NCBI RefSeq assembly: GCF_015356755.1
Contig: NZ_JADFCO010000064.1
Coordinates: 62,001 to 126,000, forward strand
Origin: Nonlabens antarcticus
Lineage (GTDB): Bacteria > Bacteroidota > Bacteroidia > Flavobacteriales > Flavobacteriaceae
Length of the DNA stretch: 64,000 nt
Direction: 5' to 3'
The translations under genes were made by a program, and so were the position numbers. Positions 24,020 to 36,943 of the stretch are shown piece after piece (position 1 is the first letter of the stretch; each line of letters opens with the position of its first letter). The notes under the pieces were generated by a model. That model was not told the origin of the DNA and ran no database searches. It saw nothing but the letters and a program-made list of their open reading frames with translations.

Positions 24020-25711
24020 TTATATTTTACTTTTAATAGATTCAATGACAGCCTCTTTATCTTTTAAGACTTCTATATCGGTAAATCGTAAAAATTCAAA
24101 ACCTTTAGATTCTAAAAATTCCTGTCTTCCTTTATCCTCATCTATTTGAATACGATGAATTCCTCCATCAATTTCTACGATAATTGATTTTTCAATACAG
24201 GCAAAGTCAACGATATATTTATCAATGATGTGTTGCCTTCTAAATTTGACGCCCAATTTTTTATTTCGTAATTCTTGCCAAATAAGATCTTCTGTTTCGG
24301 TTGGATTTTTACGCATTCTGGAAGCTCGTTCCTTCAAGGTTCCATAAATAGTTTTGCGAGCCGTTTCATAAGAATACTTTTCTCGACCTAGAGAGGTCCC
24401 TTCCGCTGGAAGGGATTTAGGGTTGGCTTGCAGATGTTTCAATCGAACACTTACCGCACTCTTATGAGCATCAAGTCCCTCAGCTGCAGCCATGGTTTCA
24501 ACCGCAGGCCCTAGATTTTGCAAACCTTGTGCTGTAGCTTTTTGATAAGTCACTTTATTTACAAAACTATCAACAGAAACGCCGCTATAATTGCGCGCAT
24601 AGCCGTAGGTAGGCAGCGTGTGGTTAGTGCCGCTGGCATAATCACCCAAACTTTCACAAGTGTAAGCTCCTATAAATATGGAACCCGCAACCTTTATCTG
24701 ATCTGCGATTTCTTCAGAATTCTGTGTATTGATAATCAAATGCTCTGGTGCATAAACGTCAGACCAATCAATACATTCTGCGATACTGCTCAATACAATG
24801 ACTTTGCTATTTTCCAGTGCTGCAAATGCCGTCTCTTTTCGCGAAAGCGATTTGATTTGTGCTTCAATCTCTTTATTCACTTCGATAGCCAATTCCTGAG
24901 AATTTGTCAATAAGATAACCTGAGAATCGTGTCCGTGTTCTGCCTGCGCCAGCAGATCTGCAGCTACAAACGCAGGATTAGCAGCGCCATCTGCAATTAT
25001 TAAAACCTCAGAAGGTCCAGCCGGCATATCGATAGCAACACCTTGTTGCTGGGCTAACTCTTTAGCCCGAGTCACAAATGCATTTCCAGGACCGAAAATC
25101 TTTTGAACAGCTGGAACGCTTTCAGTTCCATAAGTCATCGCCGCGATGGCTTGAGCACCGCCCACCTTATAAATTTCAGTAACTCCACATAGATTTGCCG
25201 TGTAGAGAACTACCGGATTAATGTTCCCATCAGCATCGGTAGGACTGCAGAGGACTACTTGTTCATTTCCAGCGATTTTAGCAGGGATCGCCAGCATTAA
25301 AACCGTAGAGAAAAGAGGAGCAGAGCCTCCAGGAATATATAATCCTACTTTCTGAATAGGCAGCGACTTTCTCCAGCAGGTAATACCAGGCGTGGTTTCA
25401 ACTACGGGATAATCCTTAGTGAAACAGGCAGCGTGAAATTTAAATATGTTGTTGTAAGCAACTTGTATTGCTGCTTTCAAATCGGCATTTACTTGTTCAG
25501 ATGCTTTTTGAATCTCTTCGGTAGTCACTTTAAGGCTGGATAATTTGGCATTATCAAACTGTTCTGCAAAAGCGATTAGAGCATCATCACCATTTTCTAC
25601 AACGAGCTGGATGATATCCTTAACAGCGCTATCGACTTCTGATCGCTGTTTAAGCGGTCTCTCTAGCAAAGAAGACTGGTGAGATTGCGATGGGTTGAGA
25701 ATGATTTCCAT
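24020..25711 (-). CDS. hisD: Histidinol dehydrogenase fused to a DUF559 nuclease-like domain
   Basis: Residues 1-428 are a full HisD, the zinc enzyme oxidising histidinol to histidine. It has [38 protein letters not shown] and an ordinary end at [10 protein letters not shown]. Instead of stopping there, the frame continues for 135 residues. Residues 429-456 are read from a family D repeat ([18 protein letters not shown]). Residues 457-563 form a complete DUF559 domain of the Vsr/PD-(D/E)xK type, with [31 protein letters not shown] and the acidic motif VEIDGGIH. The start overlaps the hisG stop by 1 nt. Whether cells make one fused protein, a processed one or a nuclease from an internal start is unknown. 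Confidence 0.93.
24396..24426. repeat. Repeat family D at the hisD-DUF559 junction
   Basis: GGTCCCTTCCGCTGGAAGGG then ATTTAGGG, the same palindrome as at 20811. It is read in frame as the linker between HisD and the nuclease-like domain. Confidence 0.8.
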
Positions 25712-26562
25712 CAGACGATTAGTTTTTCAATAGGACTTACTAATATTCCTTGCGCACCAGCTTCTTTCAATTGGTCAATGACATTCCAAAAGTCGTTTTC
25801 CTCAATCACACTGTGTAAACTGCTCCAGCCTTCTTCTGCGAGTGGAAGTACCGTTGGGCTTTTCATCCCGGGAAGTAGCGCAGTGATTTCCTCGATTTTA
25901 TCGTTAGGTGCGTTAAGCAATATATATTTACTCTTAGCAGCGTTCATGACGGCCTCCATGCGGAACATTAATTTGTCCAGCAATTCTTTTTTTTCATCGT
26001 TCAATGAGGGGTTTGATATTAAAACGGCCTCACTATACATTACCGTTTCAACTTCTTTAAGACCGTTCATGATTAAGGTAGAACCGGTAGAAACAATATC
26101 ACAAATACCCTCTGCAAGACCTATTCCTGGGGCGATTTCAACACTTCCACCTATTTCTTCTGTAGTGGCATTAATCCCTTTTGCTTCAAAGAATTTTTTG
26201 ACAATATTAGTATAGCTGCTCGCAACGCGCTTACCGTTAAACCATTCAAGTCCAGGATAATCAACGTCTTTTAAAACGGCAAGGCTCAACCTACAGCCCG
26301 CAAAGCCCAATTGTTTGATCACATCTACTTTTTGATCTTTTTCCTCAACCTCATTAAGGCCGAGAATTCCAAGATCTGCAACTCCCTGAGCAACATATTG
26401 CGGGATATCGTCATCTCTTAAAAATAAGATCTCGATGGGAAAATTCTTTGCTTTGGAGCTCAATTTCCGGGTTCCGTTGTCAAATTTGATCCCGCAATCC
26501 TTTAATAATTGAAGAGACTTATCACTAAGTCTTCCTGATTTCTGTACTGCTATTCTAATCAT
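25711..26562 (-). CDS. hisG: ATP phosphoribosyltransferase, long form
   Basis: First and committed enzyme of histidine synthesis, condensing ATP with PRPP. It is of the long type, with a C-terminal regulatory domain (about residues 205-283) that in homologues binds His for feedback inhibition. Recognisable motifs are MIRIAVQKSGRLSDKS, VADLGILGLNEV and the PRPP-binding EGICDIVSTGSTL. I start at ATG 26560-26562; an in-frame ATG at 26577 would add five residues of no family pattern. It is the first structural gene of the his operon and lies about 80 nt downstream of the attenuator terminator, so its expression should follow His supply both by attenuation and by feedback. Confidence 0.95.
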   Translation of the reverse strand: MIRIAVQKSGRLSDKSLQLLKDCGIKFDNGTRKLSSKAKNFPIEILFLRDDDIPQYVAQGVADLGILGLNEVEEKDQKVDVIKQLGFAGCRLSLAVLKDVDYPGLEWFNGKRVASSYTNIVKKFFEAKGINATTEEIGGSVEIAPGIGLAEGICDIVSTGSTLIMNGLKEVETVMYSEAVLISNPSLNDEKKELLDKLMFRMEAVMNAAKSKYILLNAPNDKIEEITALLPGMKSPTVLPLAEEGWSSLHSVIEENDFWNVIDQLKEAGAQGILVSPIEKLIV

Positions 26563-26633
26563 AATTTTTGTTGTCATTCCGCACTTAATGAGGAACTTTT
26601 TAGATCTCTGTCAAAGCTGTTTTTTGCATCAAT

Positions 26634-26699: not shown

Positions 26700-26756
26700 T
26701 TAGCTCGCCTGACGGGAAGTGTTGGAATGATGGTGATGTAAATTTGTGTTTTTCAT
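26700..26756 (-). CDS. hisL: Histidine operon leader peptide
   Basis: An 18-residue frame reading MKNTNLHHHHSNTSRQAS, with four consecutive His codons, followed 31 nt later by an intrinsic terminator and then hisG. A ribosome waiting for His-tRNA would stall at 26727-26738 and leave the downstream pairing segments free; with ample His it would run to the stop and let the terminator form. The ATG lies exactly 7 nt after the -7 element TACATTTG, so the transcript is probably leaderless or nearly so. The arrangement is classical his attenuation with a different leader sequence. Too short to be found by ordinary gene callers. Confidence 0.9.
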   Translation of the reverse strand: MKNTNLHHHHSNTSRQAS

Positions 26757-26763
26757 TATTATG

Positions 26764-26794
26764 CAAATGTAAGTGGTGTTTCGCTTTCGCGAAA
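26764..26794 (-). promoter_or_regulatory. his operon promoter
   Basis: TACATTTG (26764-26771, minus strand) matches the Bacteroidota -7 element. A TTTC at 26791-26794, 19 nt upstream, could serve as the -33 element. The -33 region falls inside the exact TTTCGCGAAA palindrome, so a protein bound there would compete with RNA polymerase. Confidence 0.75.
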
Positions 26795-27802: not shown

Positions 27803-28585
27803 CTATTTCTTAATTTCCTTTACAAATGAGGCTACGGTCTGTTTCAAATCAGTCGTTTCTGCAATCTGGCGTATAAACTCACTGCCGATGATCGCTCCAT
27901 CCACGAATGAGCATGCATCCTTGAAGTTTTGGTTATTTTTTATATTGAAACCCGTCAGAACGGGCGTTTTCAAGTCCATGTCCCGCAACTTGCCCAGATA
28001 GTCTGCCGCAGCAGAGAAATCTGCCTTGCTGCCCGTCGTACTTGCGCTGCTCACAGCATAAATAAAACCAGTCGAGTTGGCATCAATCTCGCGGATGCGT
28101 TTTTCTGAGGTTTGAGGTGTGACTAGAAACACATTAGAAATATTATGTTTTTCAAAGGTTGCTTTGAATTCGTGTTCATAGATAAACATGGGCAAGTCGG
28201 GTACGATCAACCCGTCAACACCGACCGAAGCACAGCGCGCACAAAATTTATCGAGGCCGAATTGCATTACTGGATTCAGATAACCCATTAATAAAATAGG
28301 AGTATCTGCTTCAGGATTTTCTTCTCTGTAGCTTTCGAGCTGAGTGAATAATTTCTCAATCGACATCCCGTTTTCAAGCGCAATCTTGCTGCTTTCCTGA
28401 ATGGTAGGCCCATCTGCCAAAGGATCACTAAAAGGAATCCCGATTTCAACAAGATCGACTTTAGCTTCTTCCAAAGCCTTCAGAATAACAGTGGTGTCTT
28501 CCAGTTTAGGATAACCAGCCGTGAAAAATATATTGAGCAAGTTTTTAGGCTTACTGCTGAATAGTTGGGTTAGGTTGTTCTGCAT
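27803..28585 (-). CDS. trpA: Tryptophan synthase alpha chain
   Basis: TIM-barrel subunit that cleaves indole-3-glycerol phosphate to indole, which is channelled to TrpB. The 260 residues are normal. The catalytic Glu is in DLVEIGIPFSDPLADGPTIQ and the Asp in GLIVPDLP. Last gene of the trp operon, 3 nt after the trpB stop, then the RES/Xre pair. Confidence 0.97.
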   Translation of the reverse strand: MQNNLTQLFSSKPKNLLNIFFTAGYPKLEDTTVILKALEEAKVDLVEIGIPFSDPLADGPTIQESSKIALENGMSIEKLFTQLESYREENPEADTPILLMGYLNPVMQFGLDKFCARCASVGVDGLIVPDLPMFIYEHEFKATFEKHNISNVFLVTPQTSEKRIREIDANSTGFIYAVSSASTTGSKADFSAAADYLGKLRDMDLKTPVLTGFNIKNNQNFKDACSFVDGAIIGSEFIRQIAETTDLKQTVASFVKEIKK

Positions 28586-34772: not shown

Positions 34773-34800
34773 AAAAAAGGTCTGCCGTTAAGCAGACCTT
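34773..34800 (-). terminator. Attenuator terminator of the trp operon
   Basis: On the minus strand AAGGTCTGC and GCAGACCTT form a perfect 9-bp stem with a 6-nt loop and a following T-run. The leader segment CAGCCGT (34827-34833), at the leader stop codon, can pair with ACGGCAG (34782-34788) of the loop and 3' arm with one mismatch, a candidate antiterminator. Confidence 0.9.
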
Positions 34801-34824: not shown

Positions 34825-34878
34825 TCACGGCTGTTGAGCTATGTTATTCCACCACCATGTATGATTTGTTCCTTTCAT
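34825..34878 (-). CDS. trpL: Tryptophan operon leader peptide
   Basis: A 17-residue frame reading MKGTNHTWWWNNIAQQP with three consecutive Trp codons, followed 25 nt later by a strong intrinsic terminator and then trpE. Stalling at the Trp codons (34849-34857) would leave the CAGCCGT segment at the stop codon free to block the terminator; a ribosome reaching the stop would mask it. The ATG lies exactly 7 nt after the -7 element TATCTTTG, as in the his and asn leaders, so a leaderless transcript is likely. Confidence 0.92.
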   Translation of the reverse strand: MKGTNHTWWWNNIAQQP

Positions 34879-34885
34879 TGAGGTT

Positions 34886-34917
34886 CAAAGATAATTCCGC
34901 TTTCGCGAAAGCGCAAA
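34886..34917 (-). promoter_or_regulatory. trp operon promoter
   Basis: A textbook Bacteroidota promoter on the minus strand: TTTG (34914-34917), 20-nt spacer, TATCTTTG (34886-34893). The whole GCTTTCGCGAAAGC palindrome fits inside the spacer, so a protein bound to it would occlude RNA polymerase. Confidence 0.88.
34899..34912. repeat. GCTTTCGCGAAAGC palindrome, copy 7 (trp promoter spacer)
   Basis: Exact copy lying wholly between the -33 and -7 elements of the trp promoter. Confidence 0.9.
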
Positions 34918-34933
34918 CTTTACAGCATCCATT

Positions 34934-36595
34934 TTAATATCCATCATCATGTACTCCCGCAACCGCTCTGCCAGAAGGGTCGTTCATGTTTTTAAACGCC
35001 GCATCCCACTCGAGTGCAATAGGAGTAGAACATGCTACAGATTTCACGGAAGGTACGCAACTTGCAGCAGCATCGCTGGGAAAGTGATCGTTGAAAATAC
35101 TACGGTAGTAATATTCTTCCTTACTCTGTGGTGGATTGATTTTGTATTTATAAGCCGCCGATTCCATCATGTCATCAGTAATTAAACCGTCAACCGTTTC
35201 TTTTAAGGTATCGATCCAGTTGTAGCCCACGCCATCGCTAAATTGTTCTTTTTGCCTCCAAGCTACACTCTTAGGCAGATAATCCTCAAACGCTTCACGC
35301 AAAATGTGCTTTTCCATTTTACCGTTACCACACATTTTGTCTTTAGGGTTCAATCGCATTGCAACATCCATGAATTCTTTATCCAGAAATGGAACGCGAC
35401 CCTCAATTCCCCAAGCCGCCAGCGACTTATTAGCTCTTAGGTTGTCATACAAGTGTAACGTGTCTAGTTTACGAACGGTTTCCTTATGGAATTCCTCAGC
35501 AGATGGTGCCTTATGAAAATAAAGATACCCGCCGAAAATCTCATCACTGCCCTCACCAGAAAGTACCATCTTTATTCCCATGGATTTAATCACTCGAGCG
35601 AGTAAATACATAGGCGTGGAGGCGCGTATAGTGGTCACATCGTAAGTTTCTAGGTAGTATACAACATCTTTTATAGCATCGAGACCTTCCTGAATGGTGA
35701 AGTTGACACTATGGTGCACGGTGCCTATATGGTCTGCAACAACCTGAGCGGCGGCAAGGTCAGGACTTCCCTCTAGGCCTATCGCAAAGGAGTGCAGTTG
35801 TGGCCACCAGGCGTCTGTATTATCGCCAGATTCAATTCGTTTTGCTGCGTATTTTTTTGCGACGGCGCTTACAATGGAACTGTCCAGCCCGCCAGAAAGA
35901 AGAACACCATATGGAACATCGCTCATCAGGTGTCTGTGGACGCTCTCTTCCATGGCCTTGCGCAATTCTGAGACAGAGCTGGTGTTATCTTTAACCGCAT
36001 CATAATCTTTCCACTCGCGATCATACCATTTTGTGAAGCTCTTGTCTTCACTGTAATAGTAATTCCCAGGAGGGAAAGGAGCGATCTCATTACAAGTACC
36101 TTCAAGAGCTTTTAGTTCGCTGGCAACATAAAACTGACCCATCTCATCTCTACCATAATACAGTGGAATAATTCCTTGATGATCTCGCGCGCACAAGAAT
36201 AGATCCTTCTCAGAGTCATAGAGCGCAAAGGCGTACATTCCTAGTAAATCATCCATAAAGTCTACGCCCTTATCTTGATACAGGGCAAGAATTACCTCAC
36301 AATCAGATTTGGTTTTGAAATTATAATCAGGATATTTTGCCCTGATTTCCTGGTGGTTGTAGATTTCTCCGTTGACAGCAAGTATAACCTTACCATCTGG
36401 GCTGTATAAAGGTTGTCCACCAGATTGTGGATCAACAATAGTGAGACGCTCGTGAGCTAGAATAGCATTTTTGCCACAATAGATCCCTGACCAGTCAGGT
36501 CCTCTATGTCTCAGTTTTTTTGAAAGCTCAAGTACATCTTCTCTTTGTAAAGCACTTTCTTTTTTCAGTTCGAATACCCCTACGATTCCGCACAT
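34934..36595 (-). CDS. asnB: Asparagine synthetase B, glutamine-hydrolysing
   Basis: Makes Asn from Asp, Gln and ATP. The N-terminal glutaminase starts MCGIVGVFEL with the catalytic Cys2 and contains RHRGPDWSG and AHERLTIVDP. The synthetase half has the PP-loop GVLLSGGLDSSIVSAVAKK and LSGEGSDEIFGGY. The 553 residues are standard. The ATG lies 18 nt after the T-run of an attenuator terminator, with no Shine-Dalgarno sequence. It is a single-gene unit placed just upstream of the trp operon, and its leader contains seven Asn codons, so it appears to be controlled by charged Asn-tRNA. Confidence 0.97.
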   Translation of the reverse strand: MCGIVGVFELKKESALQREDVLELSKKLRHRGPDWSGIYCGKNAILAHERLTIVDPQSGGQPLYSPDGKVILAVNGEIYNHQEIRAKYPDYNFKTKSDCEVILALYQDKGVDFMDDLLGMYAFALYDSEKDLFLCARDHQGIIPLYYGRDEMGQFYVASELKALEGTCNEIAPFPPGNYYYSEDKSFTKWYDREWKDYDAVKDNTSSVSELRKAMEESVHRHLMSDVPYGVLLSGGLDSSIVSAVAKKYAAKRIESGDNTDAWWPQLHSFAIGLEGSPDLAAAQVVADHIGTVHHSVNFTIQEGLDAIKDVVYYLETYDVTTIRASTPMYLLARVIKSMGIKMVLSGEGSDEIFGGYLYFHKAPSAEEFHKETVRKLDTLHLYDNLRANKSLAAWGIEGRVPFLDKEFMDVAMRLNPKDKMCGNGKMEKHILREAFEDYLPKSVAWRQKEQFSDGVGYNWIDTLKETVDGLITDDMMESAAYKYKINPPQSKEEYYYRSIFNDHFPSDAAASCVPSVKSVACSTPIALEWDAAFKNMNDPSGRAVAGVHDDGY

Positions 36596-36613
36596 AATTA
36601 AATTTTTAAATGA

Positions 36614-36643
36614 AAAAAGGTCTACTGTGAAGTAGACCTTTTG
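36614..36643 (-). terminator. Attenuator terminator of asnB
   Basis: On the minus strand AAAGGTCTACT and AGTAGACCTTT form a perfect 11-bp stem with a 4-nt loop and a T-run. GGTAGTCC (36661-36668), immediately after the leader stop codon, can pair with the GGTCTACT arm at 7 of 8 positions, forming the alternative antiterminator. Confidence 0.9.
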
Positions 36644-36668
36644 ATTTGTTTTAAATACCAGGACTACC

Positions 36669-36716
36669 TTACATACGTAAAGAATTATTGTTCCCGATAT
36701 TATTATTGTTTGTCAT
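36669..36716 (-). CDS. Asparagine-rich leader peptide of asnB
   Basis: A 15-residue frame reading MTNNNNIGNNNSLRM with seven Asn codons in runs of four and three. It is followed by a putative antiterminator segment, a perfect terminator hairpin and then asnB. A ribosome short of Asn-tRNA would stall upstream of GGTAGTCC, letting it pair with the terminator's first arm; a ribosome reaching the stop at 36669 would cover it. The ATG is 7 nt after the -7-like TACATTTA. Codon content, position and RNA pairing all agree on an Asn-responsive attenuator. I know of no well-described Asn leader of this kind. Confidence 0.88.
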   Translation of the reverse strand: MTNNNNIGNNNSLRM

Positions 36717-36723
36717 GATGAAG

Positions 36724-36754
36724 TAAATGTAGATAATAAACATTTATAATACAA
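36724..36754 (-). promoter_or_regulatory. asnB promoter
   Basis: TTG (36752-36754), a 20-nt spacer and TACATTTA (36724-36731) on the minus strand fit the Bacteroidota -33/-7 pattern with A for the last G. Unlike trp and his it contains no palindrome. Confidence 0.75.
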
Positions 36755-36910: not shown

Positions 36911-36943
36911 ATAAAAGCCTTTACACATTGTAAAGGCTTTTAT
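36911..36943 (-). terminator. Terminator of msrA
   Basis: ATAAAAGCCTTTA and TAAAGGCTTTTAT form a perfect 13-bp stem 15 nt past the msrA stop codon. T-rich tails on both strands make it potentially bidirectional. Confidence 0.8.

Follow-up and report, generated by a model that had tools for sequence, protein, structure and literature searches.

How might a flavobacterium adjust its asparagine synthase to the supply of asparagine? The question is raised by the asnB locus of Nonlabens antarcticus, in a stretch of 64,000 nucleotides (nt) from contig NZ_JADFCO010000064.1 (assembly GCF_015356755.1, positions 62,001 to 126,000) that is referred to here, at its full length, as the window. A short reading frame rich in asparagine (Asn) codons and an intrinsic terminator precede asnB in the window. 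Very probably, the arrangement controls asnB by ribosome-mediated attenuation of transcription in response to the supply of charged Asn-tRNA, a conclusion built on sequence comparison and predicted RNA folds. All parts lie on the minus strand and follow one another, 5' to 3', as a promoter-like TACATTTA, the Asn leader frame, a segment 2, the terminator hairpin with its T-run, and asnB:

36752-36754, minus strand: TTG, a possible -33 element
36724-36731, minus strand: promoter-like -7 box TACATTTA, ending 7 nt 5' of the leader ATG
36669-36716, minus strand: Asn leader peptide frame MTNNNNIGNNNSLRM, 15 codons plus TAA (ATG at 36716, stop at 36671-36669)
36699-36710, minus strand: first Asn run, codons 3-6 (AAC AAT AAT AAT)
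36692-36701, minus strand: segment 1 (AATATCGGGA), within the leader frame, its partner at 36654-36663 (from fold and covariation)
36684-36692, minus strand: second Asn run, codons 9-11 (AAC AAT AAT)
36653-36668, minus strand: segment 2 (GGTAGTCCTGGTATTT), abutting the leader stop, with segment 1 and segment 3 as alternative partners
36668-36661, minus strand: GGTAGTCC, abutting the leader stop
36631-36642, minus strand: segment 3 (AAAAGGTCTACT), both the 5' arm of the terminator and the antiterminator partner of segment 2
36615-36626, minus strand: segment 4, the 3' arm of the terminator
36613-36618, minus strand: T-run of the intrinsic terminator
34934-36595, minus strand: asnB, encoding glutamine-hydrolysing asparagine synthase B (NF006949, 917.6 bits; cut-off 499)

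The first-pass annotation of this stretch had described a 15-codon frame with seven Asn codons, GGTAGTCC right after its stop, a terminator with a T-run, and then asnB, and every one of these parts is there. Its terminator also stands, except for the length of the stem: 11 bp had been given, whereas the fold of the leader RNA pairs 12 bp, as AAAAGGTCTACT-TCAC-AGTAGACCTTTT (36642-36615). That GGTAGTCC can pair at seven of its eight positions with the 5' arm of this terminator is correct if G-U pairs are counted. From the end of the T-run (36613) to the asnB ATG (36595) there are 17 nt, and from the leader stop to asnB 73 nt. The asnB gene is the sole match of its kind in the genome, which also contains an AsnRS (asparaginyl-tRNA synthetase) and in which neither AsnA nor GatB found a match. 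AsnB is the only route to Asn found in this genome, so that the supply of Asn-tRNA should track AsnB directly.

How would such an attenuator work? Transcription would start a few bases upstream of the leader ATG. When Asn is ample, the ribosome would run on to the leader stop codon and cover segment 2, leaving segments 3 and 4 to form the terminator and keep asnB off. When Asn-tRNA is short, the ribosome would stall in the Asn codons and cover segment 1, so that segment 2 stays free to pair with segment 3, and RNA polymerase would read through into asnB. If the leader is not translated at all, segments 1 and 2 would pair, and the terminator would follow. We infer that the frame is translated, that ribosomes stall in it, and that the switch works in this direction. 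The predicted anatomy is that of a classical attenuator with its 1:2, 2:3 and 3:4 pairings.

Is the leader kept where it should be? The first-pass annotation had staked its reading on conservation of the Asn-rich frame in close relatives. Among 23 Nonlabens genomes, one (G012) was excluded because it holds only asnB fragments without a start; in the remaining 22, with a readable asnB start, leader and terminator are kept in 21, and this check does not refute the reading. These Nonlabens leaders are called type A below. The genus, like the 80 best asnB relatives considered further on, is a sample not chosen for Asn content. Codons were counted in the 16 equal-length leaders among 19 distinct ones, leaving aside the window's own, which with 15 codons is one shorter. 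Codons 5, 6 and 10-12 encode Asn in 15 or 16 of the 16, and codons 2, 3, 7-9 and 13-16 are variable. Persistence of the Asn runs while the other codons drift is the pattern expected if only the control codons matter. In one of the genomes (G018, L106/L098), asnB matches fall in two frames near codon 25, through a frameshift or an assembly error; its leader is intact.

The three pairings were counted on 21 type A sequences, with sliding of one strand by 1-3 columns as the control, and each was also compared with swapped partners from other leaders (20 rows, without L106). The terminator, 3:4, is paired in 100% of cells over 10 pairs in all 21 sequences, with two pairs changed on both sides and a swapped-partner P of 0.0006. 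The antiterminator, 2:3, is paired in 99.2% of cells over six pairs, against at most 57.9% when slid. The 1:2 pairing comprises 10 bp in the window (36701-36692 with 36663-36654), where it forms together with the terminator in the fold of the whole leader. Pairing is found in 84.9% of its cells, and sliding lowers this to 46.6% or less; three of its pairs have changed on both sides, its covariation score was matched in 0 of 500 shuffles, and own partners outpair swapped ones (z -4.1, P 0.0002, 20 leaders). In type A, segment 1 sits between the two Asn runs, within reach of a stalled ribosome. The scheme of two alternative pairings proposed in the first-pass annotation is supported but incomplete: the 1:2 pairing and its covariation had been overlooked, as had the Trp and His leaders of the window described below. 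The compensatory changes that it had named as a check are present in Nonlabens for 3:4 and absent there for 2:3, which is nearly invariant; for 2:3 they appear in the second type of leader, to which we now turn. A further small hairpin surrounds the leader stop codon (36668-36683), with a stem that varies along with that codon (TTAC/GTAA, TCAC/GTGA, CTAC/GTAG). This hairpin is fully paired in 13 of the 21 type A leaders, 12 of them with a 4-nt loop, against 0-1 when slid.

A search of 397 genomes of the family for AATAAT followed by a T-run matched 39, of which four are Nonlabens, 19 carry a second kind of Asn leader, called type B (e.g., MVRFNLNNNNNNNGNP), and the rest neither. Since the pattern itself requires AATAAT, the Asn richness of the matched set is partly selected, and the covariance model built from it inherits this bias. 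The model has 21 rows, 20 of them from the G genomes, and was run on 378 family genomes with stricter filters that lose weak matches. It matched 95 of these at E ≤0.01, 38 of them at ≤6e-11, after which there is a gap to 8e-7; the 38 matches above the gap were taken as type B. They span 25 of 237 genera, 20 having been in the model and 18 being new, and all 38 precede asnB with an Asn-bearing leader (34 leaders were called by script, three (G255, G283, G063) in the pattern set, and one with a GTG start (G111, L260) by eye). The alignment of 38 leaders comprises 37 of these 38 genomes plus L035, a metagenome-assembled genome (MAG) of the Flavobacteriaceae. The leaders have 11-18 codons (13-18 in 34 of the 38) and 3-9 Asn, with at least five Asn in 36.

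In type B, 97.3% of 2:3 cells are paired, and both sides have changed in 13 cells, of which a single pair accounts for 12; for 3:4 the figure is 99.3%, with 33 cells changed in this way, at five pairs. Own partners outpair swapped ones in both (z -5.0 and -9.3, respectively, 37 distinct leaders). A CAAGT-like stretch just 5' of the leader start is complementary to segment 2, and CAAG occurs within 18 nt in 28 of the 38. This pairing comes to -5.5 kcal/mol, against -2.8 for shuffled 5' ends, of which 0 of 200 were as low; own partners exceed swapped ones with 37 leaders (z -3.5), whereas an earlier test with 20 leaders gave no excess (P 0.42). In type B, segment 1 thus appears to be located just before the start codon, outside the frame, a departure from type A. 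Its role is likely that of a fail-safe, letting the terminator form when the leader is untranslated. In the three closest pairs of type B leaders, 4 of 4, 5 of 5 and 2 of 4 of the frame changes are synonymous; in more distant pairs, non-synonymous changes prevail. Type B and Nonlabens leaders share the short Asn-bearing frame, the terminator, asnB and the 2:3 and 3:4 pairings; they differ in their unrelated RNA sequence, in the position of segment 1 outside the frame, and in belonging to different AsnB clades.

A terminator-like site lies within 150 nt before asnB in five of the 80 best relatives, and four of the five have an Asn-containing leader: two Nonlabens, the MAG L035 (MTFNNLNNNNFT) and, weakly, a Bacteroidales MAG (L005), whose MFTTTNSAFNYNPQAD, with 3 Asn in 16 codons before a terminator and asnB, is too weak for a claim. 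The fifth site (L016) is an AT-rich stem. A bare T-run pattern before asnB proved noisy, matching 265 of 397 family genomes. CCTTTTT matched 10 of 395 genomes of the phylum, among which only the window's own and L144 passed the asnB filter, and L144 has no terminator. AATAAT with a T-run matched 15 of 395 genomes of the class, with leader and terminator only in the window's own. In two family genomes (L152, L153), genes with a glutamine amidotransferase domain that by eye are glmS-like (GATase_6 in L152) have, again by eye, hairpin-like stretches and T-runs upstream; these did not pass the terminator filter.

Six weaker matches of the type B model were also fetched (L276-L281). Five have no Asn leader, one of them (L276) lying at a contig end, and the sixth stands before asnA. 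In this genome (G382; L279, genus g193, C25), an Asn-bearing MKHNNNNKSPPQ with a terminator, at about 28,296-28,404 on the minus strand, lies 32 nt before a gene for AsnA, aspartate-ammonia ligase (PF03590, 335 bits). One test gave no good antiterminator pairing in this leader (-1.1 kcal/mol), and AsnA is absent from the one congener and from nine other genomes searched. The case is a single lead, possibly tying an Asn-bearing leader to the other Asn-making enzyme.

Several observations weigh against attenuation and have to be set beside the evidence for it. Only the four relatives named above, of the 80 best, combine an Asn-containing leader with a terminator, and one Nonlabens genome (G017) has neither in the 1.8 kb upstream of asnB. 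As for 1:2, 41 of 500 shuffles had at least as many doubly changed pairs, and pairing often fails at two of its ten base pairs, in 7 and 11 sequences. In Nonlabens, 2:3 varies on one side only and gains nothing over swapped partners (P 0.90), so that it is conserved and not covarying. By itself, 2:3 in the window is also weaker than the terminator (-7.7 against -12.7 kcal/mol), and RNA from codon 12 onward still folds with the terminator; the switch must therefore depend on the order of folding, that is, on which pairing forms first. Changes in the frame are mostly non-synonymous, 47 synonymous against 604 over 81 pairs in type A and 34 against 98 over 15 pairs in type B, the pairs not being independent in either count. 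Such changes fit a leader in which only the control codons count, and by themselves they do not demonstrate translation. Finally, the proposed mechanism presupposes coupling of transcription and translation in Bacteroidota. On balance, the conservation of the frame and the pairings support the proposal of the first-pass annotation that asnB would be controlled by charged Asn-tRNA through ribosome stalling.

Could the terminator be an ordinary, constitutive one, which ends an upstream transcript or fixes a low level of asnB, with the Asn-rich frame a chance reading of AT-rich DNA full of AAT repeats? Asn codons are indeed AT-rich, and 76 of the 80 best relatives do without the arrangement. However, a separate hairpin, near 36912, belongs to the upstream gene, and an antiterminator segment is conserved where attenuation needs one. 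Chance frames of this kind are also rare. Among 2513 ATG frames of 12-20 amino acids, nested starts included, in 400 kb of the same contig, exactly one, MTNNNNIGNNNSLRM, has at least six Asn, and two have at least five. In the same 400 kb, with its 71 terminator-like sites, a short frame could be matched to a terminator 65 times, and at least six Asn occur only in the match with MTNNNNIGNNNSLRM and in that with its longer in-frame version; MKNTNLHHHHSNTSRQAS before hisG and MKGTNHTWWWNNIAQQP before trpE came out of this unprompted screen as well. The leader RNA folds at -28.4 kcal/mol, a stability that none of 200 shuffles attained (z -5.4). Preservation of the frame in 21 of 22 genomes despite the drift of its other codons, and the use of both Asn codons in type B (46 AAC, 101 AAT), likewise speak against a chance reading, and this explanation appears highly improbable.

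A trans-acting regulator, or an RNA aptamer of the T-box or riboswitch kind, might instead sense Asn or uncharged tRNA, the frame being incidental. A terminator with an alternative pairing would also be compatible with such a sensor, which we nonetheless give very little credence: no Rfam family reaches its gathering score in the window, the 24 weak matches in the leader stretch include neither a T-box nor a riboswitch, the frame fills almost half of a leader of only about 108 nt, and the Asn codons are the best-kept part of that frame. Alternatively, the leader could affect not termination but how asnB is translated, through translational attenuation or reinitiation. Reinitiation after leader genes has been proposed, and the distance peak reported for Bacteroidetes in the part of that work consulted, 11-14 bp, is far shorter than the 73 nt between leader stop and asnB (PMC4833913). 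The position of the leader stop upstream of asnB would suit such a mechanism, but every leader counted has an intrinsic terminator, which covaries, and no pairing that sequesters the asnB start was found, making this explanation highly improbable as well. Ribosome-mediated attenuation of transcription thus accounts best for the locus.

Where did the Asn leader come from? Two further candidate leaders lie in the window and serve as positive controls:

34825-34878, minus strand: trp leader peptide MKGTNHTWWWNNIAQQP, before trpE, with a terminator at 34773-34800
26700-26756, minus strand: his leader peptide MKNTNLHHHHSNTSRQAS with a terminator, before hisG (25711-26577) and the his operon

The Asn, Trp and His leaders thus fall within about 10 kb, each matching the amino acid made by the downstream gene. 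They share the leader frame, the terminator and the distance of 7 nt from promoter box to ATG, and differ in having Trp or His codons in place of Asn codons. Of 22 Nonlabens loci, 21 have a Trp leader behind asnB; the other (L102) is truncated by the end of its contig. No other of the 71 terminator-like sites in 400 kb resembles the asnB terminator as much as that of trp does, leaving out the asnB site itself and its reverse reading: the two score 36 (next 22) and are identical at 24 of 28 bases, while the best of 2000 shuffles of the trp stretch scores 27. The his stretch is unlike the asnB terminator (score 15). The near-identity of the asnB and trp terminators suggests that one attenuator was copied from the other, and duplication of the trp attenuator with an exchange of control codons would explain it. 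Beyond hisG, the window encodes at 24020-25711 a protein in which histidinol dehydrogenase (PF00815, residues 17-424) continues in frame into a DUF559 domain (PF04480, residues 459-562).

The box before the Asn leader is labelled promoter-like for its likeness to the Bacteroidota promoter consensus. Of 20 Nonlabens leaders, 18 have such a box ending 5-9 nt 5' of their ATG. In the window, a TAnnTTTR box lies exactly 7 nt before the Asn, Trp and His leader starts (36724-36731, 34886-34893 and 26764-26771, respectively), a spacing by which the transcripts may be nearly leaderless. In type B, such a box is found 15-40 nt upstream in just one of 21 leaders.

Type B appears to have another origin. 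In a quick tree of 101 AsnB proteins, the seven type A rows fall in a group of eight (support 100), the eighth being the leaderless G017. Thirteen of the 14 type B rows form one clade (98); the remaining row, L035, falls with them and three leaderless rows in a group of 17 (94). The two types are separated by many leaderless genes, and the deepest forks are weak. This placement, together with the unrelated RNA sequences, suggests separate origins. A joint account can be offered only tentatively, and it is less probable than not: Asn-specific attenuation may have evolved before asnB on two or more occasions in Flavobacteriaceae, and perhaps on one before asnA; the Nonlabens attenuator would have come from duplication of the neighboring trp attenuator, with Trp codons turned into Asn codons and specificity rewritten by codons alone, while in the other lineage the fail-safe segment 1 would lie just before the start codon and so outside the frame.

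Asn is apparently an undescribed leader-peptide specificity. No Asn leader was found in Rfam or in the open-access full text searched, with the proviso that the 2010 survey by Lopatovskaya, Seliverstov and Lyubetsky (Mol Biol 44:128) may hold Bacteroidetes or Asn cases, so that absence from print is not established. The Rfam leader families (His, Leu, Thr, Trp, Phe and others) yield no match at the gathering cut-off in the window, where the Trp and His leaders likewise go unmatched; among the weak Rfam matches, the sole leader family is Thr_leader (17.7 bits against a cut-off of 55). The portions consulted of PMC1262725 and PMC1183508 make no mention of asparagine or Asn. According to the part consulted of a 2010 survey, leader-peptide systems had, to its authors' knowledge, been shown only in Proteobacteria and Actinobacteria, barring their own Firmicutes case and the atypical ermC leader (PMC2965389).

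If the present reading is true, asparagine joins the amino acids with leader-peptide attenuators, and one flavobacterium has predicted leaders for three amino acids (Asn, Trp and His) in about 10 kb. If attenuation works here, transcription and translation in Bacteroidota would have to be coupled closely enough for the ribosome to steer the polymerase, perhaps on transcripts almost without a 5' leader. Asn leaders of unrelated sequence in two AsnB clades would also provide a natural series in which to follow the evolution of attenuator specificity.

How does the Asn leader compare with known systems? Asn is sensed by T-box riboswitches in Firmicutes, which bind the tRNA directly and need no translation. 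The two have in common that, before amino-acid genes, they would sense the charging of tRNA; they differ in the direct binding of tRNA by the T-box, of which the window has no match. The closer parallel is with the leader-peptide attenuators of the trp, his, leu, ilv, thr and phe operons, the classical cases of ribosome-mediated attenuation. Like these, the asnB leader has a short frame rich in codons for the amino acid that the downstream gene product makes, the 1:2, 2:3 and 3:4 pairings, and a terminator before the first gene. It differs in its Asn control codon, in the gene, asnB, in its flavobacterial host, and in the spacing of about 7 nt between a -7-like box and the leader start, by which the messenger RNA may be nearly leaderless.

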